Assembly: GCA_016458225.1 (NCBI GenBank)
Contig: JAEMGR010000028.1
Coordinates: 1 to 64,000, forward strand
DNA from: Myxococcaceae bacterium JPH2
GTDB taxonomy: Bacteria; Myxococcota; Myxococcia; Myxococcales; Myxococcaceae
Direction: 5' to 3'
DNA length: 64,000 nt
Shown here: in pieces, positions 21,505 through 41,950 of the stretch
How the letters are laid out: each line of letters opens with the position of its first letter
Numbering within the stretch: position 1 is the stretch's first letter
Position numbers and translations under genes: made by a program
Notes under the pieces: model-generated
What the model was told of the DNA's origin: nothing
Database searches by the model: none
The model's input: the letters and a program-made list of their open reading frames with translations, nothing else

Positions 21505-24500
21505 ATGCGTCCCAGCTCCCTTGAAACACAGCCCCGGGTGGAAGACCTGGGTGTTGGTCCGTCCGCCGACGCGGACGTGGTCGGTCGGCGCTACCGAGTC
21601 CTCGACTTCCTGGGCCGTGGTGGCGCCGGCACTGTGTGGCGCGCGCAGGACCTGCTCGCGGGCCCGGTGGCCATCAAGCGCCTGCACCAGACAGTGACGG
21701 ACCTGGCGCGCAAGCCGGGAGAGGGGACGCCGGGCTCGTCCGCGACGCAGGGACTCGCGCTGACCTTGGCGCATGAGTTCCAGACGCTCGCGTCGCTGCG
21801 GCATCCGCACGTCATCAGCGTGCTGGACTACGGCTTCGACGCCGAGCGCAGGCCCTACCTCACGATGGACCTGCTGGAGGACGCGAGCACGCTGGTGAGC
21901 GCGGGCACGTCGCAGCCGCTGGAGGTGCAGGTCGGGTTGTTGGTGCAGACGCTCCAGGCGCTCGCGTACCTGCACCGGCGCGGCATCATCCACCGCGACC
22001 TCAAGCCCGGGAACGTCCTGGTGGTGCGCGGGCAGGTGAAGGTGTTGGACTTCGGTCTCGCCGTCGCGCGCGAGCATGCGCTCCAGGCCGCGCCCGCGGG
22101 CACGCCCGGCTATCTCGCGCCGGAGCTGTTCGAGGGACAGCCTCCCTCCGAAGTGACGGACCTCTTCGGCTTCGGCGCCATGGCCTGCCAGATGTTCTTC
22201 GGGCGGCTCCCTTTCGCGGGGCAGGTGCCCGCGCCCGCGGACTTTCCTCCTGGCCTCAAGGCCGTGCTGGAGCGGCTGGTGTCACCGGATGCCCAGCGCC
22301 GTCCGCGCAACGCGTCCGAGGTCATCGCCGCGCTGTGCGCCGCCACGGGAGAGCCAGAGCCCTCCGAGTCCGCCGCGATGCGCGAGAGCTTCCTCCAGGC
22401 CGCGCGCTACGTGGGCCGAGAGCGCGAGCAGGGGCGGCTCGCCGAGGTCCTCACGGGGGCGCTGAAGGGCAAGGGCGCCGGGTGGCTGGTGGCGGGCGAG
22501 AGCGGCGTGGGCAAGTCGCGCTTGCTGGAGGAGCTGCGGGCGCTGGCGTTGGTGCGCGGCGCCGTGGTGCTGCGCGGGCAGGCGGTGGGCGCGGGCGGCG
22601 GTCCCTATCAGGAATGGCGCGCGGTGCTGCGCTGGCTGCCCATCCTCACCGAGCTGACGGATCGCGAGGCCAGCGTCCTCAGTCCGTTGGTGCCGGACAT
22701 CGACGTGCTGCTCGGGAGGCCGGTGTCGCGCCCCGCCGAGCTGGGCGCGGAGATGGCCCAGGCTCGACTCCTCCAGGTGTTGGAGGACGTGTTCGCGCGG
22801 CTGGAGCAGCCCACCGTCGTCATCCTCGAGGACCTGCATCAGGCGCGCGCGGAGTCGCTGCACCTGCTCGCGCGATTGACGGCGCGAGCCACGCGGCTGC
22901 CGCTGCTGCTCTTGGGCAGCTTCCGCGACGACGAGGCTCGGCAGCTCCCCGCCACGCTGCCCGGCATGCAGGTGCTTCGCCTGCCTCGGTTGGAGGCGCA
23001 GGACATCGCGATGCTGGGCGAGTCCATGATTGGTCCCGCGGGCCGCGAGCCGAACGTGGTGTCGCTGCTGCTGCGCGAGACGGAGGGCAATCCGTTCTTC
23101 CTCGTGGAGGTGGTGCGGACGCTCGCGGAGGAGGCGGGCGGGTTGGACCGGCTGGGCTCCATGACGCTGCCCGCGCGCGTGTCCGCGGGAGGCATGGGGC
23201 GGCTGGTGCGGCGCCGGTTGGAGAAGGTGCCCCCCGAGGCGCGCGACCTGCTCAACGTGGCCGCCATCATCGGGCGGCAGCTCGACGTGGCGCTGCTGCG
23301 AGAGGCCTCGCCGGGGCTGGACGTGGAGCGGTGGCTGACGGACTGCGCGGCCGCGTCGGTGCTCGACGTGGCGGATGGTCGGTGGCGCTTCGCGCACGAC
23401 AAGCTGCGGGAGCGCGTGCTGGAGGACCTGCCTCGCGAGGAGCGGCCCTCGCTCCACCGCCGCGCCGCCATGGCGCTGGAGTGCGCGCACCCCGAGGGCT
23501 CCGAGTGGACGGCCGCGCTCGCGCATCACTGGGGCGCCGCGGGGGACCTCGCTCGCGAGGCGGTGTACTCGCAGCGGGCGGGAGAAGAGGCGCTCAAGGT
23601 CGGCGCGTGTCGCGAGGCGCTTCCGTTCCTGGCGCGAGCCGGCGAGTGCGTGGCCATCTTGCATGGGAGCGACGCGACCCGACTGGGGCTCGTGGAGGCG
23701 CTGCAGGCGGAGGCGCGCTTCCAGCTCGGCGAGATGGAGGCGTTCCGCGCGCATGCCGAGCGGGCCCTGCGCCACTTCGGGTGGCCCGTGCCGTCGAGCC
23801 GGTTGGGCTGGGGACTGAGCACGTTGGGACAGGTGGTGTCGCGGCTGGCGCAGAGCGCGCGGCCGGATGTCTTCGTGGACGACTCGGACGAGCGCCGCGA
23901 GGTGCGCCGCGTGGCGGGGCGTCTGCTCATGCGGCTGACGGATGCGTTCATCTACGCGCAGGAGGCGCTGCCGGTGCTGTGGACGGGCCTGCGCACATTG
24001 AACCTGTGCGAGCCCGCGGGCCCCACGCCCGAGCTGGCGCGCGGCTACACGAACATGGCGGTGGTGGCCGGCACGGTGCCGGTGCGCGTGGTGGCGGATG
24101 CGTGGGCGAAGCGCGCGCGTGAGGTGGCCGAGCGCGTGGGCGAGCCCTCCGACCTGGCCTACGTGCTCAATCGCAATGCCGTGTACGGCGCGTACATGGC
24201 GCGCTGGGCTGACGTGGAGGCCTCGCTGGAGCGAGCGATGACGCTCGTCGATTCCGTGGGGGACTTCCGCCTCGCGGAGGAGTGCCGCGCGCTGCGCGTG
24301 GTGTCGCTCTGCTACCAGGGCCACTTCGCCCCCGGCCTTCCGTTGCTGGATTGGATGGAGGCGTCCGCGCGCCGCCGAGGCGCCGTGCAGACGCAGCAGT
24401 GGGTGCCGCAGATTCGCGCGCACTGCTTCGTGCGGCTGGGGCGCGACGCGGAAGTCCTCTCCATGCTGCAGCCGACGCTCGCCTGGACGGACCAGGAGGG

Positions 24501-25065
24501 CAGCGCCGTGGACGTGGTGGTGGTGAACGCGGCGTTCGCGCTGGCGTGTCTCCACGTGGGCGACCTGACGGGCGCGCGGCAGGCCGCGGAGAAGTCGCTG
24601 GTCCGGTTGGCGGCGGGCAAGCCCGTGGCGCACTTCGCTCAGCTGGGTGCCACGGCCGTGGCCGAGGTCTTCTTGACGCTGTGGGAGAAGTCCGAGGGTG
24701 CGCCCCCGGCCGAGCGGGCCGCGTTGGCGCGCAGCGCTCGCTCCGCGTGCAAGGTGATGGCGGCCTTCGCCAAGGTGTTTCCGTTCAGCCAGTCCGCGGC
24801 GTCGCGGTGGCGTGCGACGGAGCAGGGGTTGTCGGGCCAGGCCGCGAAGGCTCGGGCGGGCTGGGAGCGCGCCATCCGGGAGGCGCAGCAGCTGGCGCTT
24901 CCCTATGACGAGGGGCGCGCGTGTCTGGAGTTGGGCCGGCACCTTCCGGAGACGGATGGCGCGCGGCGAGTGCATTTGACTCGGGCCGTGGAGCTGTTGT
25001 CGCCTCTGGGCGCGGCGCTGGACGTGGCGCGCGCGAGGGACGAGCTGGCCCGAGGCGGGGGATGA
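21505..25065 (+). CDS. Ser/Thr protein kinase fused to AAA ATPase and TPR module
   Basis: The 1186-residue protein opens with a Hanks-type kinase (about 20-285): VAIKRLHQ, catalytic loop HRDLKPGNVLV, DFGLAVA and GTPGYLAPELF. Then follows an AAA_16/LuxR-like NTPase with P-loop GESGVGKSRLLEE (about residue 332) and Walker B VVILEDLH (about 435). The remaining about 600 residues are helical TPR-like repeats. The kinase phosphorylates Ser/Thr on targets; the NTPase/TPR part probably senses and assembles. This architecture is characteristic of myxobacteria. It has no membrane helix. The start has no clear ribosome site. Its stop overlaps the start of the methyltransferase gene. Confidence 0.92.
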   Translation: MRPSSLETQPRVEDLGVGPSADADVVGRRYRVLDFLGRGGAGTVWRAQDLLAGPVAIKRLHQTVTDLARKPGEGTPGSSATQGLALTLAHEFQTLASLRHPHVISVLDYGFDAERRPYLTMDLLEDASTLVSAGTSQPLEVQVGLLVQTLQALAYLHRRGIIHRDLKPGNVLVVRGQVKVLDFGLAVAREHALQAAPAGTPGYLAPELFEGQPPSEVTDLFGFGAMACQMFFGRLPFAGQVPAPADFPPGLKAVLERLVSPDAQRRPRNASEVIAALCAATGEPEPSESAAMRESFLQAARYVGREREQGRLAEVLTGALKGKGAGWLVAGESGVGKSRLLEELRALALVRGAVVLRGQAVGAGGGPYQEWRAVLRWLPILTELTDREASVLSPLVPDIDVLLGRPVSRPAELGAEMAQARLLQVLEDVFARLEQPTVVILEDLHQARAESLHLLARLTARATRLPLLLLGSFRDDEARQLPATLPGMQVLRLPRLEAQDIAMLGESMIGPAGREPNVVSLLLRETEGNPFFLVEVVRTLAEEAGGLDRLGSMTLPARVSAGGMGRLVRRRLEKVPPEARDLLNVAAIIGRQLDVALLREASPGLDVERWLTDCAAASVLDVADGRWRFAHDKLRERVLEDLPREERPSLHRRAAMALECAHPEGSEWTAALAHHWGAAGDLAREAVYSQRAGEEALKVGACREALPFLARAGECVAILHGSDATRLGLVEALQAEARFQLGEMEAFRAHAERALRHFGWPVPSSRLGWGLSTLGQVVSRLAQSARPDVFVDDSDERREVRRVAGRLLMRLTDAFIYAQEALPVLWTGLRTLNLCEPAGPTPELARGYTNMAVVAGTVPVRVVADAWAKRAREVAERVGEPSDLAYVLNRNAVYGAYMARWADVEASLERAMTLVDSVGDFRLAEECRALRVVSLCYQGHFAPGLPLLDWMEASARRRGAVQTQQWVPQIRAHCFVRLGRDAEVLSMLQPTLAWTDQEGSAVDVVVVNAAFALACLHVGDLTGARQAAEKSLVRLAAGKPVAHFAQLGATAVAEVFLTLWEKSEGAPPAERAALARSARSACKVMAAFAKVFPFSQSAASRWRATEQGLSGQAAKARAGWERAIREAQQLALPYDEGRACLELGRHLPETDGARRVHLTRAVELLSPLGAALDVARARDELARGGG

Positions 25066-25979
25066 TGGACCACGGTGATGTGGAGTGGCTGGCGTGCCCG
25101 TCGTGTGGCGGCCGGCTGGTGTTCCATGGGCAGCTGACGGAGCGAGAGCACCTCCGGCATGGGGCGTTGCGCTGCGGCGGGTGTGGCGAGGCCTGGAAGG
25201 TGTCTCGGGGCCTGGCTCGGCTGTACCGCGAGGGCGAGGTGCGCGGCACGGATCGCCTGATGCGCGTCATCTACGACGGGCTGCCCGCGCTGCATGATCC
25301 GCTGACGGCGGTGCTCACGCCGCTGCTCCAGTCCGTCTCCGAGCCCGAGGCGAGGGACCGGTACATGCGGCGCGTGGAGTTGGGCGCGCTGCGTCCGCGT
25401 CCGGATGGGCAGCCCACGCGCATCCTGGAAGTGGGCGTGGGGACGGGCGCGAACCTGCCGCTCATCCACCGCGACCTGCCGCGCGGGCTCGACGTGGAAG
25501 TGTGGGGCGTGGACCTGAGCGAGGGGATGCTGACGCAGTGTCGCAGGCGGCTCGCCTCGGGGGAGCTGCCGCGCACGCGCTTGTTGATGGCGGATGCGCA
25601 TGCGCTGCCATTCCCGAGTGCGATGTTCGATCGCGTGCTGCACGTGGGAGGCATTGGAGGGTACCGCCAGCCTCGCGTGGCGCTGGAGGAGATGGCGCGC
25701 GTGGCTCGGCCCGGTACGCCGCTGGTGGTGGTGGACGAGCAGCTCGACCGAACGGCGCGACCGAACCTGCTCCAGCGGCTCGCCTTTCGAGCCATCACCT
25801 TCTACGACCGGAACCCGCACTGCCCCCGCGAGCTGCTGCCGCTGGGCGCCACGGGCGTCGTGGAAGAGCAGGTGGCGCCTTTCTATTACTGTCTGACATT
25901 TCGCGTGGATTCCCCCAGCGTGCGAACCCTGTCAGGACGAGATGGTACATCCTCGGCTGGCTATCTGGAGCGTGGGTAG
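25062..25979 (+). CDS. SAM-dependent methyltransferase with N-terminal zinc ribbon
   Basis: The 305-residue protein has a Trm112-like zinc ribbon (CPSCGG at 12-17 and CGGCGEAW at 38-45), then a class I methyltransferase domain: ILEVGVGTGANLPL (SAM site, about 125), VDLSEGMLTQCRRRL and the ADAHALPF loop, and a C-terminal extension with FYDRNPHCPRELLP. Substrate unknown. The overlap with the kinase stop (ATGATG/TGA) shows translational coupling, so a role in the kinase signalling pathway, or a product regulated by it, is likely. Confidence 0.85.
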   Translation: MMDHGDVEWLACPSCGGRLVFHGQLTEREHLRHGALRCGGCGEAWKVSRGLARLYREGEVRGTDRLMRVIYDGLPALHDPLTAVLTPLLQSVSEPEARDRYMRRVELGALRPRPDGQPTRILEVGVGTGANLPLIHRDLPRGLDVEVWGVDLSEGMLTQCRRRLASGELPRTRLLMADAHALPFPSAMFDRVLHVGGIGGYRQPRVALEEMARVARPGTPLVVVDEQLDRTARPNLLQRLAFRAITFYDRNPHCPRELLPLGATGVVEEQVAPFYYCLTFRVDSPSVRTLSGRDGTSSAGYLERG

Positions 25980-25993
25980 AAAGCGAGGGGGAC

Positions 25994-26635: not shown

Positions 26636-26673
26636 TCGCTGGATTCTCCCTGAGCTTCGAGGAGGTATCTCCG

Positions 26674-29112: not shown

Positions 29113-29138
29113 ACTCAGTGCCCAGGAGTGAGCCCGTC

Positions 29139-30311: not shown

Positions 30312-30377
30312 TCCAGAGAACCTACGGCGGGCCCCCGTGGTGATTCAAACGGACGGTCGGCTCACGTAGGTCGTCCC

Positions 30378-30992
30378 CTACCTGATGAAGCCCTTCCTGC
30401 TCAGCGTCCCTTGCTCCGAGGGCACCAATACTTCGTAGAGTTCGGGGTCAGCCTTGGAGGATTCGGTCGGTTGGGGCCGGCGCCCATCCCACCATCCGGC
30501 GAGGAAGAGAAGGGGGGCCGTTCGCTGAAAGTGCTGTTGCCATCCGCGCAGCATCTTCGCGACGACTGATTCGAGTCGCTGGCGCTCGTCGAAATAGGGA
30601 TATGCGACCACGACCGCGAGTTCGGCTCGCAGCGCCAGTGCCTTCCAGATGGCCCACTCGATGTACTCGCCACTGTTGGGGTCTGGCAGTTCTCCCGCTT
30701 TGGAGCCCACTCTGCCGTTCTCATGTTCGACTGCGATGAGGGGGAATTTGTCGTAGGCGTCGCTCTCGATGAAGACATGATCGACATTCATGACTTCAAA
30801 AGAGCTTGCCCCGCCTCTGTTGTAGCAGTGGAGCTTTGCCTTGCCTGCCATGTACTGCATCCGTCTCTCGAACCACTGAGTGGTATCCCGATTTGACGAG
30901 AAGTCGTGACGCTCCACATCAACAGACCGTTGGAAGCTGGAGAGGAACGCCGACGGCTCGCAAAGTGGATGGATGAGCTGGGGTCTGCGCAC
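30378..30992 (-). CDS. Hypothetical protein, possible PD-(D/E)XK-like fold
   Basis: The 204-residue protein has no signal peptide. VMNVDHVFIESDAYDKFPLIAVEHENG followed by EYIEWAIWKALALRAELAVVVAYP alternates beta-helix-beta with acidic residues, as in PD-(D/E)XK nuclease-like folds, but I cannot see a complete Asp...Glu-x-Lys set; VEHEN is the closest. It may be inactive or a different fold. The GTG start at 30992 has CGGAG 7 bases upstream. It is upstream of, and on the same strand as, the glycan-binding gene (66-base gap). Confidence 0.5.
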   Translation of the reverse strand: MRRPQLIHPLCEPSAFLSSFQRSVDVERHDFSSNRDTTQWFERRMQYMAGKAKLHCYNRGGASSFEVMNVDHVFIESDAYDKFPLIAVEHENGRVGSKAGELPDPNSGEYIEWAIWKALALRAELAVVVAYPYFDERQRLESVVAKMLRGWQQHFQRTAPLLFLAGWWDGRRPQPTESSKADPELYEVLVPSEQGTLSRKGFIR

Positions 30993-31096
30993 GGTGGCTC
31001 CGAGGGGCTGAATGCGTCTCGCGATGATTCATCCTGTGGCGAGTCCGGTGTTCCGTGGCCGGATTCGGCTCCTCCGCGTGGCATGTGTTCGGTTCT

Positions 31097-31393
31097 CTAC
31101 TCCTCGCGTGACGCCGCCCCTTTGGCCAGAGCCCAGGTCAAACCGGCTCTACGTCGCGCGGATCCACCATGAGGATGTGACGATGGCCCCCCGAGAAGGG
31201 GCACGCCGACTCCGGGGACATCGAGGACCAGGACGCCATCTGGCTCGATCTCTTCGACGATGAACTCGCCTCCCAGGCTGGCGATGAACAGCTGTCTGGA
31301 TTCCCGTGGCAGTTGTTCGAGCCATGAAGGGAGCGAAGTGACTCGAACGGATTGGCCTACCCGGTGTCTGCTCGAATCATTGCTCGTGGACAT
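31097..31393 (-). CDS. Small hypothetical beta protein
   Basis: The 98-residue product starts MSTSNDSSRHRVGQSVRV and has one compact beta unit (VTSLPSWLEQLP, then FIVEEIEPDGVLVLDVPG) like a small SH3/KOW-type barrel, and an Arg/Ala/Gly-rich tail. A GTG at 31414 would add 7 residues and start one base after the TGA of the reductase gene upstream, so it could be the last gene of the lipid operon. Proteins like this occur as unknowns in myxobacteria; no function can be given. Confidence 0.5.
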   Translation of the reverse strand: MSTSNDSSRHRVGQSVRVTSLPSWLEQLPRESRQLFIASLGGEFIVEEIEPDGVLVLDVPGVGVPLLGGPSSHPHGGSARRRAGLTWALAKGAASREE

Positions 31394-31415
31394 ACTCGCT
31401 GGCTCGAGGGTCACG

Positions 31416-32240
31416 TCAGGGATTGAGCAGCAGGTCCAACAGGCGCAGCGTCATGCCTCCGCTGAAGTCGATGGTCGCTCCGTTGAACCAGGCGGCGTCC
31501 TCGCCCGCCAGCACCGTGACGAAGCGGGCCACTTCTTCGACCGTGCAGATGCGCCCCGCGGGATTCATCTTCGCGTGCGCCTCCTCCAGCCTCGCCAGGG
31601 CCTCCGGTGAGTACACGTGCCGTAGCGCGGGTGTCATCACCGTCCCGAACTTGAGCAGGTTGACCCGGTGGCCCTTCGGCCCCAGCTCTATCGCCAGGTG
31701 ACGCACGTACATCTCCAGCGAAGCCTTCGCCGCGCTGATGAGCCCGGTGTTTCCCAGGTGCGTTTCATCCAGCGGGTTCTGCAATCCCAACAGGCGTGCC
31801 TCCGGAGCCAGCAGGTCCCTCGCCACCAGCGCCTGCGCCCAATACACGAACGAGTGCGCCATGCAGTCGAACGTGCGCTGGATGCGGCGCGGGTGCAGTC
31901 GGTCCTCTCCCTCCGACAGGAAGTGCCCCACTGACGCCCCCGCGATGGAGTGCACGAACAGCTTCACGCTCCGCGGCCCCGCGCTCGCCAACAGCGCATC
32001 CGCTCCCGCCTCCGCCCCTTCTGGCGTGGATGCGTCCGCCTGCCGCAACACCACGGCGCGCCCTTGCTCCTGGACGCGGCGCTCCACCTCCGCCGCCTGC
32101 TCCGCGTATCTCCCGCGGTGCACCCCGAACACGTTCAGGCCCGGCCTCCGCGCCACCGCCTCCGCGATCGCCGCGCCTGTCCCCGACGACGCCCCCAGGA
32201 TGACCGCCCACGTCCCGTCCCCGACTTCCCGACCGCTCAT
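31416..32240 (-). CDS. FabI/SDR-like reductase lacking the usual Tyr
   Basis: The 274-residue Rossmann protein starts with VILGASSGTGAAIAEAV (NAD(P)-binding) and has SAAKASLEMYVRHLAIELGPKGHRVN, like enoyl-ACP reductase FabI. At the position of FabI Tyr156, seven before the Lys, the residue is Thr (GNTGLISAAK), so the classical Tyr-Lys pair is missing. It ends GGMTLRLLDLLLN. It probably reduces or binds an acyl or acyl-ACP substrate in the same pathway as the adjacent FabH-like enzyme, or acts as a structural partner. Its ATG overlaps the stop of the acyltransferase by 4 bases. Confidence 0.8.
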   Translation of the reverse strand: MSGREVGDGTWAVILGASSGTGAAIAEAVARRPGLNVFGVHRGRYAEQAAEVERRVQEQGRAVVLRQADASTPEGAEAGADALLASAGPRSVKLFVHSIAGASVGHFLSEGEDRLHPRRIQRTFDCMAHSFVYWAQALVARDLLAPEARLLGLQNPLDETHLGNTGLISAAKASLEMYVRHLAIELGPKGHRVNLLKFGTVMTPALRHVYSPEALARLEEAHAKMNPAGRICTVEEVARFVTVLAGEDAAWFNGATIDFSGGMTLRLLDLLLNP

Positions 32241-33010
32241 ACCGCGACCCGCTCCTCGTTCGTGTTCCGTTCCACCCCGCGCGCTCGGTCCAGCAGTGTC
32301 TGCACCGCGCCCATCACTTCGCGATGCATGCCGCGCAGGGCCTCGGGGTCGCTCGCGTCGAAGCCCGTGCCCAGGTGTCGCTCCAGGGGCTCACCCACCC
32401 ACTGCGTCACCTTCACCGGGAAGGGCAGCGCCAGCGGCCACAGGCCCGTCGCGCCCACGCCCAGCCACAGCGGCAGCTTCCCCGGCAGGCCCCAGCGCTT
32501 GCCCAGCGCAGCCCCGTCGTTCAAGCCCACGTAGAAGTCATCCATCCCCGAGCCCCCCACTGGAACAATCGGCAGCCGATACCGCAGCGCCAGCCGCAGG
32601 TAGCCCACTCGCTCGCCCCAGTCCACGCGATAGCGATGCCGGAAACTCCTGCATCCCTCTCGCGTGCCTCCGGGCTGCACCAGCACGTGCTCGCCTCGCG
32701 CCACTGCCTCCGCCAGCCGTGGATCATCCCCGGTGACGAACCCCAGCCCGTCCGCCACGCGCTGCATCCCTGGCAGCGCGCCGAACGCACCGTGCGCGAT
32801 GCCGTGCGGCAGATATCCGAGTCGCTCGTGCAGCGTCACCGTCAGCATGCACAGGTCCAGCGCGAGCGGCCGTCCGTGATAGCCCACGATGAGCTTCGCG
32901 CCCGGCCGCAGCAGCGGCTCCAGGTTCACGACTTCGTAGCGGTGATAGCGGCGCAGCATCCCGAACGTGCCCAGCCACGCCGTCAGCGGCAGCCCTCCCG
33001 CCGCGTTCAC
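32237..33010 (-). CDS. PlsC/DGAT-like acyltransferase
   Basis: The 257-residue protein has the acyltransferase signature in a variant form: YHGRPLALD for the catalytic His...Asp (H-x6-D rather than H-x4-D) and VLVQPGGTREG for the substrate-binding block, as in TMEM68- and diacylglycerol-acyltransferase-like members. It then has LALRYRLPIVPVGGSG, normal for the family. It should transfer an acyl group from CoA or ACP to a glycerolipid or alcohol. It starts with GTG overlapping the ketosynthase stop (GTGA) and ends overlapping the reductase start, so all three enzymes are made together. Confidence 0.8.
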   Translation of the reverse strand: MNAAGGLPLTAWLGTFGMLRRYHRYEVVNLEPLLRPGAKLIVGYHGRPLALDLCMLTVTLHERLGYLPHGIAHGAFGALPGMQRVADGLGFVTGDDPRLAEAVARGEHVLVQPGGTREGCRSFRHRYRVDWGERVGYLRLALRYRLPIVPVGGSGMDDFYVGLNDGAALGKRWGLPGKLPLWLGVGATGLWPLALPFPVKVTQWVGEPLERHLGTGFDASDPEALRGMHREVMGAVQTLLDRARGVERNTNEERVAV

Positions 33011-33975
33011 CCGCCCACCCGGTACAGCACCGCGCCATACGAGACGCCCGCGCCCACGCCCACCAGCAACACCCGCTCGCCCGGACGCACGCGCCCCGAG
33101 CGCATCAACTCATCCAGGCTGGTGCCCAGCGACGCCGAGCCGACGCTCCCCGTCTTGTGCACCACGCGGATGCTGCGCTCGGCCGGAACCTCCAGCACCT
33201 GAAGCATCGTGTCCAACATGCTCCCGTTGGGTTGATGCGGCAGCACCCACTCCACGTCCCGCAGCGACATCTGCGCCTGCGTCAGCGCCGCCCGCGTGGC
33301 CGTCAGCACCGCGTCCAGCGCCACCCGCGTCATCTCCTTGCTGTGCGTGAGGAAGCGCATCCACTCGCGCTGCCCGGTGAGCTGCGGGTTCTGCATCATC
33401 ACGTCGGGCGGCAGCGTCCCGTTGTTGCCGAACGCCGAGCCCAACACGCCCTCGCCCGGCCGTGCCTCGCCCAGCACCGCCGCCGCCGCCGCGTCTCCGA
33501 ACACGAGGTACGGCCGAGGGTCCTCCGGCGTCATCGCCCGCGTGCTCAGCTCCACCGAGACGATGCCCACCGGCCCCAGCCCCGTGGCCACCGAGCGCGC
33601 CGCCAGGTCGAACGCGGTGAGGAAGCCCATGCACGCGTTGTTGAGGTCCATCGCGTCGCACTCGCCCGCGAGTCCCAGCCGCGCCGCGATGCGGTTCGCG
33701 GTGGCGGGCGCCGTCACGTCTCCGCCAATGCTGCTCACGTAGATGATCCGCCGCAGCGCTCGCGCCGGAAGCTCGGCGCGCTCCAGCGCCTTCTCCAGCG
33801 CCTGCGCGGCCAAATCAGAGGCCTGCGTGCCGGGCGGCGAGTGGTAGCGCACGTGGATGCCCGTCTTGCGCTTCACCTCCTCGGGGTCTCGCCCCACCTG
33901 GGCGCAGACCTCCTCCGTCGTCACGGCGCGGCCGGGCAGCACGCCGCCCGTGCCCAGGATGCGGACCGGAATCAC
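33007..33975 (-). CDS. FabH-like ketoacyl-ACP synthase III
   Basis: The 322-residue thiolase-fold enzyme has Cys115 (DLNNACMGFL) and His247 (LPHQPNGSM), at nearly the same residue numbers as E. coli FabH Cys112 and His244. The third catalytic residue, Asn274 in FabH, is replaced: HKTGSVGSAS carries Ser277 instead. It may therefore work with a Cys-His dyad, as reported for PqsC, or condense non-standard substrates. The GTG at 33975 follows GGAGG by 6 bases and overlaps the patatin stop (GTGA). It should extend or transfer acyl chains for the operon product. Confidence 0.85.
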   Translation of the reverse strand: MIPVRILGTGGVLPGRAVTTEEVCAQVGRDPEEVKRKTGIHVRYHSPPGTQASDLAAQALEKALERAELPARALRRIIYVSSIGGDVTAPATANRIAARLGLAGECDAMDLNNACMGFLTAFDLAARSVATGLGPVGIVSVELSTRAMTPEDPRPYLVFGDAAAAAVLGEARPGEGVLGSAFGNNGTLPPDVMMQNPQLTGQREWMRFLTHSKEMTRVALDAVLTATRAALTQAQMSLRDVEWVLPHQPNGSMLDTMLQVLEVPAERSIRVVHKTGSVGSASLGTSLDELMRSGRVRPGERVLLVGVGAGVSYGAVLYRVGG

Positions 33976-35921
33976 GCCGCCCTCCTTCCCGCCGCGCCCT
34001 CGGGGCGCTTGCTGCGCCGCTTGAGCTTCTCCCAGTGGTCCGCCAGCGCCTCCAGCTTCGCCTGCAGTGACGGGTCTTGCTCCGCCTGCTTGATGATGTC
34101 CTGCGCGCGCGTGAACTCCATGGCGGTCAGCAGCGGCTCGTTGCGCGAGAGGATGTCGTAGCCCACGTCCGCCTGCTGCGTGCCGACCTCCCCGCTGTTG
34201 TGCAGGAGGAGGACGCCGCTGGCGACGAGGTCCAGCATGCGCTCCAAGGGATTGAGCGCGGCGATGAAGCGGCCAATCGTGCCGGGGAGCAGCGGCTGCC
34301 GCGAGCTGTGTCCGAAGGGGAAGATGTTGCCCGCGAAGGTGAGGTCGGCGCCGGCGCGCAGCAGCGCCTCGGCCGGGACGTTGCTCGTGAAGGCGCCGTC
34401 CACGTAGCGCGCGGGGGGGCGCAGCGTGGGCGCCCAGATGCCGGGCGCCGAGCTGCTCGCGCGCACCGCCAGCGCCAGCGGACCCTCCTCCATCGCCGTG
34501 CACAGGCCCGTGGTCAGGTCACTGGCCACCGGCAGGAAGCGCGTCGTCAAGGAGCCCAACGCCACGTTCCCCAGGTCTCGCTCCACGCGCCACTGCAGCG
34601 CCCAGGTGCTGATGACCGAGGCCAGCGCCGCCACCGTGATGCGGCGACTCATGGCCTGCTCCACCAGCAGGTCCAGACCGCCGAGCCCATCCGCCCCATC
34701 CAGCGCGGTGCCGCAGAAGTAGCCGCCTACCGCCGAGCCCATGCTGGCGCTGCTCACCATGTCGATGGGGATGCCTCGCTGCACCATCCAGCGCAGCACG
34801 TGCACGTGGTAGAAGCCCCATACGCCGCCACCGCTCAGCGCCACGCCCACGCGCCGGTGCGTCACCGCTCGCGCCCAGCGCGCCAGGCTGTCCAACGTCC
34901 CCGCGTTCAGCCCCAGGGCCTCCAGCGGCGCGTCGCCCACGGGCGCCTTGCGTTCCAGTTCGTCCCAGTCCAGCCGCACCCAGACGGGCGCCAGCGAGTC
35001 GGGCTCGCGCCCCGCGTCCCCGTCGTTGCGGAGCTGACGGCCGCACAGCTCCTGCTCCTCGGGTGGGCGCCTCGGGTGGATGAGCACCGTGGGCAGCGTG
35101 CGGTGCGCCACGGAGCGCAGCAGCGGGAGCACCCGCGCCGTGGGCACCTGGGTGGGGGGCGGGCGATCCACCAGCCGCACCGTCTTGTCCTGCTCCAGCC
35201 CCGGTGGCTCGAAGCCGTCCAGGAACACGTAGTCGAAGCGCGCCTCGCCGCTGTGCGACAGCACGAACTCACGCACCTGCTGCTCCGTCACGTCCGTGGG
35301 AACTGTCGCGTAGTAGACGCCGTCCGCGCCGAGGACGGGCATGGCGGCCGGGGTGCCCTGCTTCAGGAGGAGCACCCGGTCTCCGAAGTCGCGCACCTGC
35401 ACCTTGGCCAGCAGGCCCACCAGCAGCGACAAGGGCACGCCGCGCAGCTCGGGCGCGGTGGAGAACGCGACCACCTCCGCGCGCTGGTCCACCGCGTGCT
35501 GTCGTCCCCCGTCGTTCCCGAGCAGGTCCAACCCGAGGTCCTGGCGCAGTCCGGCCCGGGCCTCCGCGAGGCTCAGCACCGCCTCGCGCGGGAAGAACAG
35601 CGCGCGTGAACGGGCGAGCGCCGTCACCGTGGCGGACGCGATGCCGCGCACCACCGACTCGACGCCCAGCACCTGGCCCGGCCGTAGTTGGAGGAGCACC
35701 AGCCCGTCGCGCCGCGCCTCCAGCACGCCGTCGCGCAGGAGGAAGAAGCCCTCGAAGGGCTGGCCCTCCTGGCAGACCTGGTGGCCTTCCTCCCACGTGA
35801 GTTCCTGCGCGGACTCCAGGAGCTGGAGGAGGACGGAGTTGCTGGTGTAGCGCAGCGGGCCCGCTTGCTTCAGGGCGAACAGGCGCTGCCGCGTTTCGGA
35901 CAGAGAGGGGAGAGTGTCCAT
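33972..35921 (-). CDS. Patatin-like phospholipase with cyclic-nucleotide-binding domain
   Basis: The 649-residue protein has an N-terminal cNMP-binding domain (FFLLRDGVLEARRDGLVL...PGQVLGVESVV), a middle region of about 170 residues, and a patatin domain: oxyanion loop SGGGVWGF (about 362), nucleophile in SSASMGS (Ser about 392) and catalytic Asp in YVDGAF (about 507). The layout is that of NTE/YchK-like phospholipases. The nucleophile elbow is SxSxG rather than GxSxG. It should release fatty acids or lysolipids under cyclic-nucleotide control. As first gene of the lipid operon it could feed substrate to the downstream enzymes. It has no membrane helix. Confidence 0.88.
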   Translation of the reverse strand: MDTLPSLSETRQRLFALKQAGPLRYTSNSVLLQLLESAQELTWEEGHQVCQEGQPFEGFFLLRDGVLEARRDGLVLLQLRPGQVLGVESVVRGIASATVTALARSRALFFPREAVLSLAEARAGLRQDLGLDLLGNDGGRQHAVDQRAEVVAFSTAPELRGVPLSLLVGLLAKVQVRDFGDRVLLLKQGTPAAMPVLGADGVYYATVPTDVTEQQVREFVLSHSGEARFDYVFLDGFEPPGLEQDKTVRLVDRPPPTQVPTARVLPLLRSVAHRTLPTVLIHPRRPPEEQELCGRQLRNDGDAGREPDSLAPVWVRLDWDELERKAPVGDAPLEALGLNAGTLDSLARWARAVTHRRVGVALSGGGVWGFYHVHVLRWMVQRGIPIDMVSSASMGSAVGGYFCGTALDGADGLGGLDLLVEQAMSRRITVAALASVISTWALQWRVERDLGNVALGSLTTRFLPVASDLTTGLCTAMEEGPLALAVRASSSAPGIWAPTLRPPARYVDGAFTSNVPAEALLRAGADLTFAGNIFPFGHSSRQPLLPGTIGRFIAALNPLERMLDLVASGVLLLHNSGEVGTQQADVGYDILSRNEPLLTAMEFTRAQDIIKQAEQDPSLQAKLEALADHWEKLKRRSKRPEGAAGRRAA

Positions 35922-35995
35922 GAGGGGCCGCGAGATTAGCCAACCCCTTCGCCGCCGCGAACAGCACGGCGGGTCTTCTCTGGGAGCTCGGCGCG

Positions 35996-38900
35996 TTACA
36001 CAGGCTGCGGGCGAGGCGGCTCGGCGGGCGGCGAGCCCTCTCCGGGGCCGGCGTGCTCGCGGCGCTTGAGCAGGCGAGAGCGGGCGCCCTCGACGATGGC
36101 GTACAGCACCGGGATGAAGATGAGGTTGACGAAGGTGGAGAAGAGCATTCCACCGAACACCGCGGTGCCCATCGACTTGCGCGACGCCGCGCCCGCCCCC
36201 GAGGCCACCATGAGCGGCACCACGCCGAAGAGGAACGCGAAGGACGTCATCAGGATGGGCCGCAGGCGCGTCTCGGCGGCGTTGACGGCGGACTCCACCA
36301 CGCCCTGCCCCTGCGCGCGCAGTTGCTCACCGAACTCGACGATGAGGATGGCGTTCTTGCTGGCCAGGCCCACCAGCATCACCAGCCCCACCTGGCAGAA
36401 GACGTCGTTCACCAGAGAACGCGCGTTCTGCAAGAGCAGCGCACCCAGGATGGCCACGGGCACCGCGAGCATCACCACGAAGGGCAGGGAGAAGCTCTCG
36501 TACTGCGCGGACAGCACCAGGAACACGAAGACGATGCCCAGCGCGAAGATGATGAGGACCTTGCCACCCGCCGCCTTTTGCTCGGCGGACAGGCCCGTCC
36601 ACTCAAACGAGTAGCCGGCGGGCAGGGCCTGCTGGGCCACGGACTCCATCTGCGTGAGGGCCGTGCCGGTGCTGACGCCGGGCGCGCCCTGGCCGTTGAT
36701 GGTGGCCGAGCGGAACAGGTTGTAGTGCGAGATGTTCTGCGCGCTCGTGACGGGCGTCACCTTCACCAGCGCCTCCAGCGGCACCATCTGTCCGGACTGC
36801 GCGCGCACGTAGAAGGAGCCGATGTCCCGGGGCTCGCTGCGGAACGGCATGGCCGCCTGCACGTACACCCGGTACACGCGGTTGGCGAAGGTGAAGTCGT
36901 TGACGTACTGGCTGCCCAGATAGACCTGGAGCGTGGAGAAGAGGGAGTCCAGCGGCACGCCCAGCGACTTGGCCTTCTCGCGGTCCACCTTCACGTCCAG
37001 CAGCGGCGTGTTCGCGGTGTACGACGAGAAGATGCCCGTGAGCTGCTTGTCCTGCGAGGCGCGGCCCACCAGCGTCTGGGTCGCCTGGGCCAGCTCGTCG
37101 AGCGAGCGCCCGCCGAGCTGATCCTCCAGCACGAACTCGAAGCCGCCCACGCTGCCCACGCCGCGGATGGCGGGAGGCTGGAAGGGCAGCACGCGCGCGC
37201 CGCCGATGGCGAGCAGCGGCATGCGGAGCCGGTCAATCAACCCGGAGACGCTCTGGCTCTTCTTCTTGCGGTCCTCCCACGGGTGGAGGTTGACGAAGAG
37301 GGTGCCGTAGTTGGAGCCCGTGCCCAGCAGCGAGAAGCCGCCCACGGTGAAGATGTCCGCGACCTCCGGCTCCTTCTTCAGCACGGCCTCCGTCTGCAGC
37401 AGCACCTGTCGCGTGTAGTCGAGCGACGTGCCCTCCGGGCCCTGCACCGCGACGATGATGTAGCCCTGGTCCTCGTCCGGGATGAAGCCGCTGGGCGTGC
37501 GCGCGTACAGGAAGCCCGTGGCGAAGATGAGGAGGAGGAAGACGCCCACCACGGGCCAGCGCCACTTGCCCAGCAGCAGCCCCAAGAGCTTGCCGTAGCC
37601 GCGCTGGAAGCGCATGAGCGCCGCGTCGAACTGGCGCGCCAGCTTCACCTTCTGCCCCTCGTGCGGGCGCAGGAGCCGCGCGCACAGCGCGGGGGAGAGG
37701 GTGAGGGCCACCAGCGCGGAGAGGCTGATGGAGAAGGCGATGGTGAGGGCGAACTGCTTGTAGATGGCGCCCGTGGTGCCGGGGAAGAAGGACACGGGGA
37801 CGAACACGGCGGACAGCACCAGCGCCGTGGCCACCACCACGCCGGCCACCTGGCGCATGCCTCGGTGCGTGGCCTCGCGCGGGCCCACGTTGTCCACGCC
37901 CATCACGCGCTCGACGTTCTCGATGACGACGATGGCGTCATCCACCACGAGGCCCGTGGCCAGCGTGAGGCCCAGGAGGGTCAGCGTGTTGAGCGAGAAC
38001 CCGAACACGTTCACGAACGCGAAGGTGCCCACCAGCGACACCGGCAGCGTCGTCACGGCCACCAGCACGCTGCGCCAGCCATGCAGGAAGATGAAGATGA
38101 CGAGCACCACCAGCGCGATGGCCTCGCACAGCGCCTTGACCACCTCCTCGATGGAGGCCTGCACCGCGAGCGTGGTGTCAAAGGCGGCCTGGTACGTGAG
38201 CCCGGGCGGGAAGGTCGCCTTCAGCCGCTCCAGCTCCTTCACCACGCCGTCGCGCACCTGGAGCGCGTTGGAGCCGGGGAGCTGGAAGATGCCCAGGCCC
38301 ACCGCCTCCTGGCCGTTGAAGCGCAAGAGCTGCTGGTAGTTCTCCGCGCCCAGCTCCGCGCGGCCCACGTCCTTCAAGCGCACCAGCGAGCCGTCCTGGC
38401 CGCGCTGCACCACCAGCTCGCCGAACTGCTCCGCCGAGGTGAGCTGTCCCGCCACGCGCAAGGTGAGCTGGTACGTCTGGCCCTCGGGGGCGGGGGGTTG
38501 GCCCACCTTGCCGCCGCCCACCTGCACGTTCTGCTCGCGCAGCGCCGCCACCACGTCCGACGCGGTCAGCTTGCGCCGCGCCAGCTGGGTGGGGTCCAGC
38601 CACAGGCGCATGGCCAGTCGGCGCTCGCCGAAGATGCGCACGTCGCCCACGCCCTTCACGCGCAAGAGCGCGTCGCGGATGTAGACGTCCGCGTAGTTGC
38701 TGAGGAACTCCGTGTCGTAGCGGCCGTTCTTGTCATAGATGCCGAAGGCCATGAGCAGCTGCGTCTGCGCCTTGGCCACCGTGACGCCCAGCGAGTTGAC
38801 GGCCGCGGGCAACTGCGGCGTCGCCGTGGATACGCGGTTCTGCACGTCCACCGCGGCCAGGTCGATGTTCCGCTCCGGATCGAACGTGACGATGATGCTG

Positions 38901-39166
38901 CTGGCGCCGTCGTTGGTGCTGGACGAGGACATGTAGCGCATGCCCTCCACGCCGTTGAGCTGGCGCTCCAGCACGGTGGTGACGGCGCTCTCCACCGTCT
39001 CCGCCGCCGCGCCGATGTACGTGGCCGTCACCTGCACCTGGGGCAGCGCCAGGTCGGGGTATTGCTCGATGGACAGCGCGGGGATGGAGATGGCTCCCAC
39101 CAGCGTGATGAGGATGGAGAGCACGCTGGCGAAGACGGGGCGGTTGATGAAGAAGTCGGTGAACAT
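35996..39166 (-). CDS. HAE1-type RND efflux permease
   Basis: The 1056-residue inner-membrane pump has the family start MFTDFFINRPVFASVLSIL, twelve hydrophobic helices, two large periplasmic loops and the proton-relay helix GLVVDDAIVVIENVERVMG with paired Asp. The length and the FPGTTGAIYKQFALTIA motif fit AcrB/MexB-like multidrug exporters. It works as a trimer with the adaptor and TolC-like genes upstream. The 9-base gap to the adaptor stop shows an operon. The patatin gene is 74 bases downstream on the same strand, so the efflux transcript may continue into the lipid operon. No regulator gene is adjacent. Confidence 0.95.
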   Translation of the reverse strand: MFTDFFINRPVFASVLSILITLVGAISIPALSIEQYPDLALPQVQVTATYIGAAAETVESAVTTVLERQLNGVEGMRYMSSSSTNDGASSIIVTFDPERNIDLAAVDVQNRVSTATPQLPAAVNSLGVTVAKAQTQLLMAFGIYDKNGRYDTEFLSNYADVYIRDALLRVKGVGDVRIFGERRLAMRLWLDPTQLARRKLTASDVVAALREQNVQVGGGKVGQPPAPEGQTYQLTLRVAGQLTSAEQFGELVVQRGQDGSLVRLKDVGRAELGAENYQQLLRFNGQEAVGLGIFQLPGSNALQVRDGVVKELERLKATFPPGLTYQAAFDTTLAVQASIEEVVKALCEAIALVVLVIFIFLHGWRSVLVAVTTLPVSLVGTFAFVNVFGFSLNTLTLLGLTLATGLVVDDAIVVIENVERVMGVDNVGPREATHRGMRQVAGVVVATALVLSAVFVPVSFFPGTTGAIYKQFALTIAFSISLSALVALTLSPALCARLLRPHEGQKVKLARQFDAALMRFQRGYGKLLGLLLGKWRWPVVGVFLLLIFATGFLYARTPSGFIPDEDQGYIIVAVQGPEGTSLDYTRQVLLQTEAVLKKEPEVADIFTVGGFSLLGTGSNYGTLFVNLHPWEDRKKKSQSVSGLIDRLRMPLLAIGGARVLPFQPPAIRGVGSVGGFEFVLEDQLGGRSLDELAQATQTLVGRASQDKQLTGIFSSYTANTPLLDVKVDREKAKSLGVPLDSLFSTLQVYLGSQYVNDFTFANRVYRVYVQAAMPFRSEPRDIGSFYVRAQSGQMVPLEALVKVTPVTSAQNISHYNLFRSATINGQGAPGVSTGTALTQMESVAQQALPAGYSFEWTGLSAEQKAAGGKVLIIFALGIVFVFLVLSAQYESFSLPFVVMLAVPVAILGALLLQNARSLVNDVFCQVGLVMLVGLASKNAILIVEFGEQLRAQGQGVVESAVNAAETRLRPILMTSFAFLFGVVPLMVASGAGAASRKSMGTAVFGGMLFSTFVNLIFIPVLYAIVEGARSRLLKRREHAGPGEGSPPAEPPRPQPV

Positions 39167-39175
39167 GCGTCCCCC

Positions 39176-40318
39176 TCACTGACCCGCGTCCGCGCCGCCG
39201 CCGGTTCCGGTTCGCTCGGATGGTGGGGGCGCTTCCTTGGGCTGGATGGGCATGCCGTCTCGCAGCAGTTGCAGGCTGCTCACCACCACCTGCGTGCCCG
39301 CGTCCAAGCCTCCGAGGATTTCGTAGTCGTTGCCTTGGATGCGGCCCAGGTCCACGGGCGTGCGCTTCACGATGGTGCCGCCGTCCCCCTGCGCCACCAC
39401 CATGGCGAAGGACTCGGTGCCTTGGTGGGTGACCGCGGCGGTGGGCATCTTCAGCGCGTCGCGCGCGGAGTAGATGATCTGCGCGCGCACGAGCTGGCCC
39501 GCGCGCAGCTTGGCCGTGTTGTCGAAGGCGGCCTTCACCTCCACCAGTTGCGTGCCGGTGTTGGGCGTGGGCGCGACGAAGAAGACGGGCGCGCGCACCA
39601 CCGGCTTGCCCTCTCCGTCCAGCACCTCCATGGGCGTCTTGCCCACCTCCACGTGGGCGGCGCGCTCCACCGGCACCTGCACCGACAGCTCCAGCGCCAG
39701 GCTCTGGTCCACCCGCGTCAGCACCGACTGCGGCGTGACGTAGTCGCCAATCTTCACCGGGATGTCGCCCACCGTGCCCGAGAAGGGCGCGCTCACGTTG
39801 TAGAAACCCAGTTGCACCTGCTGGGCTTGAATCTGCGCCTCGGAGGAGCGGGCCTGGGCCTCGGCCTGCTCGGCCTGCGCCACGGCCTGGTCATAGTCCT
39901 GGCGGCTGGTGAGGCCCTCCTTGAGGAGCTGCTCGCTGCGCTGGCGCGTGCGGCGCGCGTACTCGCGGTTGGCGATGGCGGACGCGCGCTGGGCCTCGAT
40001 GGCGCGCAGGTTGGCCTTCACCTGCCGCGGATCCACCACCAGGAGCACCTGGCCTTGCTTCACCGTGTCCCCGGGGCGCACGGGGATGGTCTCGACGTAG
40101 CCGGCCACCTGCGGGAAGACGGTGATGCTGCGCCGGGAGATGAGCGTGCCCACGTACTCGACGGAGTCGAGCACCGGGCCCGGCTTCACCGACAGCACCT
40201 GCACGGGGAGCGCCTTGCCCGCCGCCGCGCCCTGCTGCTTGCTCGCGTCCTTGTCGTGGCACCCCGCCACGAGGGCCAGCACCATGCCCCATCGCCCCCA
40301 GCCGCTCACCAATCGCAT
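39176..40318 (-). CDS. RND efflux periplasmic adaptor
   Basis: The 380-residue lipoprotein (lipobox VLALVAGC) is a membrane fusion protein: beta-barrel and lipoyl part (ITVFPQVAGYVETIPVRPGD, then VKQGQVLLVVD), a coiled-coil hairpin (about 100-165), the lipoyl return (YNVSAPFSGTVGDIPVKIGD) and a C-terminal barrel. It bridges the permease and the outer-membrane channel. It starts at 40318, 13 bases inside the end of the TolC-like gene, so translation is coupled. Confidence 0.93.
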   Translation of the reverse strand: MRLVSGWGRWGMVLALVAGCHDKDASKQQGAAAGKALPVQVLSVKPGPVLDSVEYVGTLISRRSITVFPQVAGYVETIPVRPGDTVKQGQVLLVVDPRQVKANLRAIEAQRASAIANREYARRTRQRSEQLLKEGLTSRQDYDQAVAQAEQAEAQARSSEAQIQAQQVQLGFYNVSAPFSGTVGDIPVKIGDYVTPQSVLTRVDQSLALELSVQVPVERAAHVEVGKTPMEVLDGEGKPVVRAPVFFVAPTPNTGTQLVEVKAAFDNTAKLRAGQLVRAQIIYSARDALKMPTAAVTHQGTESFAMVVAQGDGGTIVKRTPVDLGRIQGNDYEILGGLDAGTQVVVSSLQLLRDGMPIQPKEAPPPSERTGTGGGADAGQ

Positions 40319-41814
40319 GCTGCCTCCGCGAGGAACGCGTCCACTTGTGCTTGCTGGTACTGGAACTCGCGCACCACCAGCTCCAGCTCGGCGCGTCGCA
40401 GGTCTCCGGCGGACTGCACCAGCTCGAGGCTCGTCCCCGTGCCCACCTCGAAGCTGCGGCGGGTGAGCCGGTCGCTCTCTTCCGCCAGGGCGCGCTCGCG
40501 GGCCGCGATGTCGCGCGTGGACTTCGCCACCTCCACCTGGCGGCGCGCCCGCACCACCTCCACCGAGACCGAGCGCTCCTGGGACACCACGTCCTGGCGC
40601 GCCTGCTCCGCTTGCGCGCGCGTCTGCCGCAGGCTGCCCTCGCGCGCGCCGCCATCCCAGAAGGGGAGGTTGAGGGACACGCCCACGCCCCAGGCCGGCA
40701 CCTCCGCGAAGCCCGGGTCCACGGTGATGGCCACCGCCGTGGCGGACAGGTCCAGCGTGGGCGCGTACTTCCACTTCACTCCCGTCACCGCGCGCTCGGC
40801 CACCTTGAGGCGCGAGCGCGCCACCTCGAGGTCCGTGCGCTCGTTCACGTCACTCAGGGCCCGACAGTCGTGGTGGTTCTGGTCCAGCAGTTGCTCCAGC
40901 CCCACGCCGTTGGCCGGGCCCACTTGCGCGGCGATGCCCAGCACCAGCCCGAGCGACTCGCGCGCCTTGCGCAGGTCCTCGTCCCCCGTCACCACCGCCG
41001 TGCGGGCGATCTCCGTGTCCTGCGCCACGCGCACCACGTCCAGCCGCGTGCCGGCGCCCAGGTCGAAGCGGCGCTGCGCCAGCGACTCCCGCTCCAGCGC
41101 CGTGCGCAGGTTGACGCGGTTCACCTCCGCCAGCCGCTCGGCGGACGAGGCCGCCACCAGCGCCTGGGCGAGTCCCAGCGTGAGCTGCCGCTTCGTCTCC
41201 GCGAGGGACAGCGTGGCGGTGCGGCGCGACTCCTTCGCGGTGCCCACGCCGTAGATGCTCGCCATGTCCACCAGCGGCATGGAGCCGGTGAGCAGCCCCA
41301 CCACGAGCGGCTGGGTGGGGCGCTTGGCGCCGGTGTTCGAGCCCTCCACGCCGCTGCCGCCCCCGCTGATGCCGCCGCTGATGCCGCCGCCAATCAGGCT
41401 GGAGTCCTTGGGGAGCTGCGTGGCGATGGTGCCGTTGATGGTGGGCAGCAGGTTGGCGAGCGCGATGCGCCACTGGCCCGCGGCCACCTCCACTTGCGCC
41501 AGCGCGCCGCGCAGGTCCGTGGAGCGCTGGCGTAACAAATCCAACGCCTCGCTCCAGGTCTTCACCTGGAGGGGCGCGGGGGGCACCGGTGTCAGCAGCG
41601 GATCCGACACCTGGGGTTTGAAGGGCGGCGGGACCTCCGGCACGTCCTCGGGCGAGGGCGTGTGAGGTGGCCCGGGCGGGCGCGCGGGCTCCGAGGGCGG
41701 CACCGTCTGGGCGGAGGACTGCACCGGGCGCTCGGGGCCCGGGGTGACCGGGGGCGGCAGCGCGACAATGAGTCCAGCGCGCGACAGCCAGGCTGCGAGC
41801 AGGAGGGGCGTCAT
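40306..41814 (-). CDS. TolC-like outer-membrane efflux channel
   Basis: The 502-residue protein has a signal sequence, a Pro-rich segment of about 60 residues (PPPVTPGPERPVQ through PPFKPQVSD) that is unusual for TolC, and two OEP repeats of long helices (LDLLRQRSTDLRGALAQVE..., FDLGAGTRLDVVRVAQDTE..., FEVGTGTSLELVQSAGDL). It forms the trimeric exit duct for the RND pump. First gene of the efflux operon. A Gly-rich loop (IGGGISGGISGGGSG) lies in the first repeat. Confidence 0.9.
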   Translation of the reverse strand: MTPLLLAAWLSRAGLIVALPPPVTPGPERPVQSSAQTVPPSEPARPPGPPHTPSPEDVPEVPPPFKPQVSDPLLTPVPPAPLQVKTWSEALDLLRQRSTDLRGALAQVEVAAGQWRIALANLLPTINGTIATQLPKDSSLIGGGISGGISGGGSGVEGSNTGAKRPTQPLVVGLLTGSMPLVDMASIYGVGTAKESRRTATLSLAETKRQLTLGLAQALVAASSAERLAEVNRVNLRTALERESLAQRRFDLGAGTRLDVVRVAQDTEIARTAVVTGDEDLRKARESLGLVLGIAAQVGPANGVGLEQLLDQNHHDCRALSDVNERTDLEVARSRLKVAERAVTGVKWKYAPTLDLSATAVAITVDPGFAEVPAWGVGVSLNLPFWDGGAREGSLRQTRAQAEQARQDVVSQERSVSVEVVRARRQVEVAKSTRDIAARERALAEESDRLTRRSFEVGTGTSLELVQSAGDLRRAELELVVREFQYQQAQVDAFLAEAACDW

Positions 41815-41950
41815 AGGCGATGCCCTCCCAGGTAGGAGTCATCGCCGCGCGGTGCCACTGCCCGCCGCGTCGCGGTCCCGCTGGCCAACACAGCGAGGCG
41901 GGTGGCTGCTCACCAGTGAATGGTGCGCGCGCGTCGCGCGTTGAAGTCGC

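Follow-up and report, generated by a model that had tools for sequence, protein, structure and literature searches.

What does a myxobacterium make with a phospholipase, a FabH-like synthase, an acyltransferase and a relative of enoyl reductases whose genes are laid end to end, each running into the next? The question is raised by a four-gene operon in a 64,000-nucleotide stretch of DNA from Myxococcaceae bacterium JPH2 (contig JAEMGR010000028.1, positions 1 to 64,000, hereafter the window). The genes encode a patatin-like phospholipase, a ketoacyl synthase III (KASIII)/FabH-like protein (here KAS), a lysophospholipid acyltransferase (LPLAT)-like protein and a short-chain dehydrogenase (SDR). 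An initial annotation had taken them for one pathway, with an elongation and a reduction step, that could make an unusual lipid or acyl signal. We found that the genes are inherited together in many social myxobacteria, and that the synthase and the reductase relative each lack a residue that defines their textbook relatives. The reading we prefer, held tentatively and at somewhat less than an even chance, is that the overlapping operon, a kinase-methyltransferase pair and, in one lineage, a resistance-nodulation-division (RND) exporter together form a dedicated pathway for acyl transfer, co-inherited in Myxococcota.

On the minus strand the genes run in the order patatin, KAS, LPLAT and SDR, with the coordinates first noted, and the sequence agrees with the annotated four-base overlaps, each of which contains the stop of one gene and the start of the next (Table 1). 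The Pfam matches bear out the annotated families of patatin, KAS and SDR and agree, with weak scores, with that of the acyltransferase by way of its family members. In other genomes the NTGA overlap is kept in 38/43 adjacent patatin-KAS pairs, in 46/48 KAS-LPLAT pairs and in 24/38 adjacent LPLAT-SDR pairs, and nine further loci carry an insert at the LPLAT-SDR junction. This conservation of order and overlap in Myxococcota, the kind of evidence that the initial annotation had asked for, is well past chance, and the overlaps make translational coupling of the four genes plausible. Purine-rich, ribosome-site-like sequence stands ahead of the KAS and SDR starts, and the GC content at the third codon position of the operon genes is 0.86-0.94, as expected for coding genes in a GC-rich genome. 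Scans for sigma-70-like promoters (positions 31000-42100) and for terminator-like sites (the 74-bp gap between the RND permease and patatin genes) found none, although such scans are little informative in a GC-rich myxobacterium.

Co-occurrence was surveyed in 195 Myxococcota genomes, with orthologs told from paralogs by a clear break in the scores. Orthologs of KAS, LPLAT and SDR were found in an identical set of 58 genomes, and these 58 and no others also have relatives of the patatin (E<=1e-30). The shared carriers support the proposal of a single functional unit, and are the opposite of the single, scattered homologues with unconserved overlaps that would have spoken against it. The four genes do form an operon as annotated, but the unit is larger: the methyltransferase (E<=1e-25) occurs in 55 of the 58 carriers and in none of the other genomes, the kinase in 56 of them and in one non-carrier (G063), and the RND pump joins in one lineage. 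In one of the two carriers without the kinase (G085), the methyltransferase lies near a contig end. In genera g1, g5, g7, g8 and g19 every sampled genome is a carrier, in g3 three of six are, and in g6 one of four is; the remaining carrier is the distant genome G016 from another family, where identity is 41, 54 and 53% for KAS, LPLAT and SDR, respectively. In G062 the set is split by ~2.8 Mb, with KAS and the methyltransferase at 4.59 Mb and LPLAT and SDR at 7.43 Mb, and all are kept. The informative cases for co-inheritance are g3 and g6, where only some genomes carry the set, the distant G016 and the split set of G062.

The arrangement of the genes was compared across these lineages. Loci of g1, g5 and g19 have the order TolC - adaptor - RND - patatin - KAS - LPLAT - SDR, after which the convergent genes for methyltransferase and kinase usually come. 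In g5 loci (L062-L063, L072-L074, L090-L095) LPLAT and SDR are both retained and are parted by several kb of extra genes, which encode a 761-amino-acid (aa) protein family without known function and small proteins. The RND triad stands upstream of the operon in g1/g5/g19 loci only and is absent from those of g3, g6, g7 and g8, where KAS, LPLAT and SDR keep together except in G062 and a divergent relative of the patatin with its cyclic nucleotide monophosphate (cNMP)-binding domain lies upstream or past the kinase. The stable core is KAS-LPLAT-SDR; patatin, methyltransferase and kinase are near-constant partners, and the RND pump is a lineage-specific addition. Furthermore, the KAS and SDR trees both group the second copies of three genomes (G127, G079 and G082) apart from the main copies, a pattern that transfer or duplication of the whole set would produce. 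The first-type KAS-LPLAT copy in G079 (locus L072, G079:C410) seems internally deleted: residues 1-223 of KAS run into LPLAT at about residue 131; second copies of KAS, SDR and the methyltransferase are found elsewhere in that genome. A small carboxymuconolactone-decarboxylase-like protein has only 13 carriers, all of the second type and G016 among them. Three related genomes (G098, G099 and G101) keep KAS-LPLAT-SDR and have neither this protein nor the methyltransferase, which suggests that the two form a linked optional step.

The KASIII domain pair (PF08545 and PF08541) spans the full length of KAS. A longer open reading frame (ORF) of 498 aa starts at an in-frame upstream GTG (34503), but we place the true start at the GTG at 33975 because conserved proteins begin there. 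Cys115 and His247 are retained, and both the Cys and the His are invariant in the family. The column of the catalytic Asn of FabH holds a Ser (Ser277 in KAS) in 53/53 copies, including that of distant G016, and the motif that bears it reads GSV[G/A], compared with GNTS in the FabH paralogs of the same and related genomes. KAS has neither the Cys-His-Asn triad of FabH nor the Arg of its HQANxR motif, and its score against the NCBIfam fabH model TIGR00747 was 175.3 bits, below the cut-off of 292.1. In Escherichia coli FabH, Asn274 and His244 stabilise the enolate after decarboxylation of malonyl-acyl carrier protein (malonyl-ACP) (PMC10054515). Because the Asn needed for decarboxylation is a Ser in every copy, KAS is probably not an elongating synthase, and the elongation step of the initial annotation is doubtful. 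A degenerate-pattern search of genome contigs for KAS returned Citreicoccus inhibens as its sole match. Another KASIII-family protein of the same genome as KAS (L099, G000:C3:614294-614563) keeps the Cys, and its residues aligned with the catalytic His and with the Asn are Thr and Tyr, respectively.

The best profile match of the SDR among solved structures was FabL (3oic), and Lys172 is invariant in its family. The position of FabI Tyr156 is occupied by Thr165, and by Thr, Cys or Ala across the family, and that of FabI Tyr146 by an invariant Asn (Asn155); the Tyr-x6-Lys active site of FabI and FabL is absent. Since the catalytic Tyr is missing, the normal reductase step that had been proposed is doubtful as well. 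KAS and SDR are members of wider fold families, yet neither is a textbook FabH or FabI, because the defining residue of each was looked for and found replaced. The remainder of each protein is conserved, which makes decay unlikely, and judged by their sequences these enzymes look like working proteins with changed chemistry.

All 16 LPLAT family members tested matched PF01553 and 9/16 matched PF03982 (DAGAT), with weak scores; the operon's own LPLAT fell below the PF01553 gathering cut-off (best E 5.1e-5). It has His45-x6-Asp52 in place of the HX4D motif. Its sequence profile had no match among solved structures, plasmid collections held only distant LPLAT and KASIII matches, and single-sequence structure predictions of LPLAT and KAS, with a predicted local distance difference test (pLDDT) score of 36, were not used. 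In the patatin, Ser393 of a GxSxG-like motif and Asp508 of a DG[AG] motif form the catalytic dyad, which is intact in 52/52 aligned members. The patatin is also the least fixed member of the operon, being paralogous or detached in the second lineage, where its versions (group B) are larger or fused. At locus L041 (2798-8029) a 1743-aa patatin ORF, in which WD40-like repeats follow the patatin domain on its C-terminal side, adjoins a second-type KAS.

We infer the chemistry and product of the pathway as follows. The patatin may hydrolyse membrane (lyso)phospholipid and so supply acyl chains, possibly under cyclic-nucleotide gating. Cys115 of KAS would accept an acyl group from a thioester and would most likely hand it to a hydroxyl, an amine or a pre-formed nucleophile, as do CerJ and ChlB3, which are KSIII-fold acyltransferases with a Cys-His-Asp triad (PMC9573744). 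We favour such a transfer over decarboxylative elongation because the enolate-stabilising Asn is a Ser. LPLAT would carry out another acyl transfer, and tailoring of the product would fall to the Tyr-less SDR and the S-adenosylmethionine (SAM)-dependent methyltransferase; the RND pump would export the product in the g1/g5/g19 lineage, to which Citreicoccus belongs; the kinase and the cNMP domain may regulate the pathway. As two of the enzymes have lost the residue that defines their textbook relatives, the pathway probably does not yield ordinary fatty acids but an acylated compound not yet described. A bolder proposal is that social myxobacteria use two enzymes of changed chemistry, a decarboxylation-deficient KASIII that acts as an acyltransferase and a FabI-family enzyme without its Tyr, to make a new class of acylated, methylated molecule, a lipid or an exported signal, with a kinase and a cyclic nucleotide in control; we regard it as possible, but would not count on it.

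Several observations weigh against the acyl-transfer pathway. The KAS sequence scores nearest to ordinary FabH and BioZ, not to CerJ, and the Ser could still hydrogen-bond the enolate, so that KAS could stay a condensing enzyme. The proximity to FabH and BioZ, together with the oxyanion-loop glycines and the equivalent of FabH Asn247 that KAS conserves and the FabI/FabL-like character of the SDR, would suit elongation in the manner of fatty-acid synthesis (FAS), much as the initial annotation had it: the patatin would supply chains, KAS would extend them with malonyl-ACP using Ser in place of Asn, the SDR would reduce them and LPLAT would esterify them into an unusual membrane lipid. We consider this unlikely, though it deserves serious attention, given that the Asn is replaced in every KAS, that the HQANxR Arg and the Tyr of the SDR are lost, and that the conserved set holds no ketoreductase, dehydratase or ACP, which, as first annotated, sets it apart from the usual genes of fatty-acid synthesis. 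The missing decarboxylation residue would be compatible, too, with a non-decarboxylating condensation of the 3-hydroxy-3-methylglutaryl-CoA (HMG-CoA) synthase type, in which KAS uses a thioester enolate or a beta-keto donor in an aldol/Claisen reaction, and an archaeal HMG-CoA synthase model does match KAS over most of its length (2.1e-18). We rejected this candidate as very improbable: the Glu that serves as general base aligns to a Ser in KAS, whereas the genome's own HMG-CoA synthase keeps it. At the aligned column that synthase has an Asn.

The partners of KAS bring further difficulties for an acyl-transfer pathway. The group-B patatin is a divergent paralog and that of G016 is unlinked, which makes it less certain that the patatin serves this pathway. 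The RND pump is tied to the operon in one lineage alone, and drugs are the usual cargo of HAE1 pumps. The carriers cluster by genus, which leaves no more than a handful of independent events of co-gain or co-loss, so that a naive p-value overstates the evidence. A different role for patatin and pump alike is offered by an operon for phospholipid repair or remodelling, in which the patatin deacylates, LPLAT reacylates, KAS and SDR are minor or regulatory, and the RND pump neighbours envelope-stress genes. The pairing of a deacylase with a reacylase is classic phospholipid-remodelling logic, and the adjacent pump and the control by cNMP and kinase would fit a stress response. The invariant core is nonetheless KAS-LPLAT-SDR, with the patatin as a variable partner; the methyltransferase is co-inherited, and the patchy presence of the set in g3 and g6 points to a specialised function, not a housekeeping one. 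This explanation appears to us distinctly improbable, and the co-inherited acyl-transfer pathway is the one that we retain.

The positions of the operon genes, their junctions and the neighbouring genes are collected in Table 1. The overlap between the kinase and methyltransferase genes is an ATGA at 25062-25065 and is kept in 23/36 pairs.

Table 1. Features of the operon and its surroundings in the window.
Feature	Position	Strand	Evidence or remark
Patatin-like phospholipase with N-terminal cyclic-nucleotide-binding domain, NTE/RssA-like, 649 aa	33972..35921	-	Pfam cNMP_binding 8.9e-11, Patatin 3.5e-20
KASIII/FabH-like protein, 322 aa, GTG start	33007..33975	-	Pfam PF08541 (ACP_syn_III_C) 2.4e-25, PF08545 1.9e-12
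LPLAT/DGAT-like acyltransferase, 257 aa	32237..33010	-	Motifs YHGRPxAxD, PGGTREG, LPIVPV; YHGRPxAxD, PGGT and LPI/VP invariant in the family
FabI/FabL-like short-chain dehydrogenase, 274 aa	31416..32240	-	PF13561 (adh_short_C2) 2.1e-30
Patatin/KAS overlap	33972..33975	-	GTGA; patatin stop and KAS start
KAS/LPLAT overlap	33007..33010	-	GTGA; KAS stop and LPLAT start
LPLAT/SDR overlap	32237..32240	-	ATGA; LPLAT stop and SDR start
Large Ser/Thr protein kinase with AAA_16 ATPase domain	21505..25065	+	Pkinase 3.4e-33, AAA_16 4.4e-23
SAM-dependent methyltransferase with N-terminal CxxC zinc-ribbon-like part, convergent with the operon	25062..25979	+	Methyltransf_25 1.1e-16
AcrB-type (HAE1) RND permease, 74 bp upstream of patatin	35996..39166	-	PF00873 E=0, TIGR00915 above cut-off
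RND periplasmic adaptor	39176..40285	-	TIGR01730 1.6e-67; start estimated at 40285, ORF reaches 40774
TolC-type outer-membrane efflux protein	40306..41814	-	PF02321 1.7e-42

Between the operon and the methyltransferase, a stretch of 5.4 kb (window positions 25988-31413) is missing in the sister species Citreicoccus inhibens M34, where ~1.5 kb stand in its place. It occupies exactly the space that separates the SDR stop codon from that of the convergent methyltransferase, and it encodes a 390-aa protein with a NADase-translocation F5/8-type domain. Other genera have different extra genes at the SDR-methyltransferase junction or between LPLAT and SDR, and the SDR-methyltransferase junction looks like an insertion hotspot. 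An anti-phage defence system was also considered and rejected; the defence-specific models gave weak or generic domain matches only, mainly to kinases.

The initial annotation had known of no described pathway with this gene set. Our literature search for the set, including in Myxococcus, likewise found no description, with thin coverage of subscription journals and supplementary tables. The locus offers a gene set that is co-inherited, open to testing and without a function in the literature searched, and may encode a pathway to an acyl lipid or a small molecule that draws on known families whose active sites have been altered. Myxobacteria are known for lipid signals and secondary metabolites, and standard annotation as 'FabH', 'enoyl reductase' and 'acyltransferase' would bury the set among fatty-acid genes. 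If KAS is an acyltransferase with a Cys-His-Ser active site and the SDR works independently of Tyr, they would be new catalytic variants of two textbook folds.

Known systems resemble the locus in part. The Ole (olefin) and arylpolyene/dialkylresorcinol clusters also combine a thiolase-fold enzyme with a reductase and acyltransferase-type partners, and sometimes with exporters, but the conserved set here is without an OleB/OleC-type hydrolase/ligase, ACPs, KAS-beta partners and a dehydratase. The patatin joins a cNMP-binding domain to a patatin domain with a Ser-Asp dyad, as NTE/RssA-type patatins do, and unlike them shares an operon with KAS, LPLAT and SDR. The acyltransferase is linked to LPLAT/DGAT2-like enzymes (PF01553, PF03982) by its PGGTREG and LPIVPV motifs and by the weak matches of all members, and is set apart by H-x6-D in place of H-x4-D. 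Similarly, the SDR has the adh_short_C2 family, the FVHSIA and C-terminal motifs and the Lys in common with the FabI/FabL enoyl-ACP reductases, whereas both active-site Tyr positions of FabI are replaced (by Thr/Cys/Ala and by Asn). KAS resembles FabH in its full-length family match, active-site Cys and His, HQxN motif and oxyanion glycines, and differs in the Ser for Asn, the missing HQANxR Arg, the fabH score below cut-off and a location outside a FAS cluster. Compared by published description, CerJ and ChlB3 (PMC9573744) have Asp as the third residue and lie in polyketide clusters, whereas KAS has Ser, and its sequence is not specifically close to theirs; what the three have in common is the KASIII fold, the Cys and His through which KAS, too, would transfer acyl groups, and an active site without the Asn of FabH.

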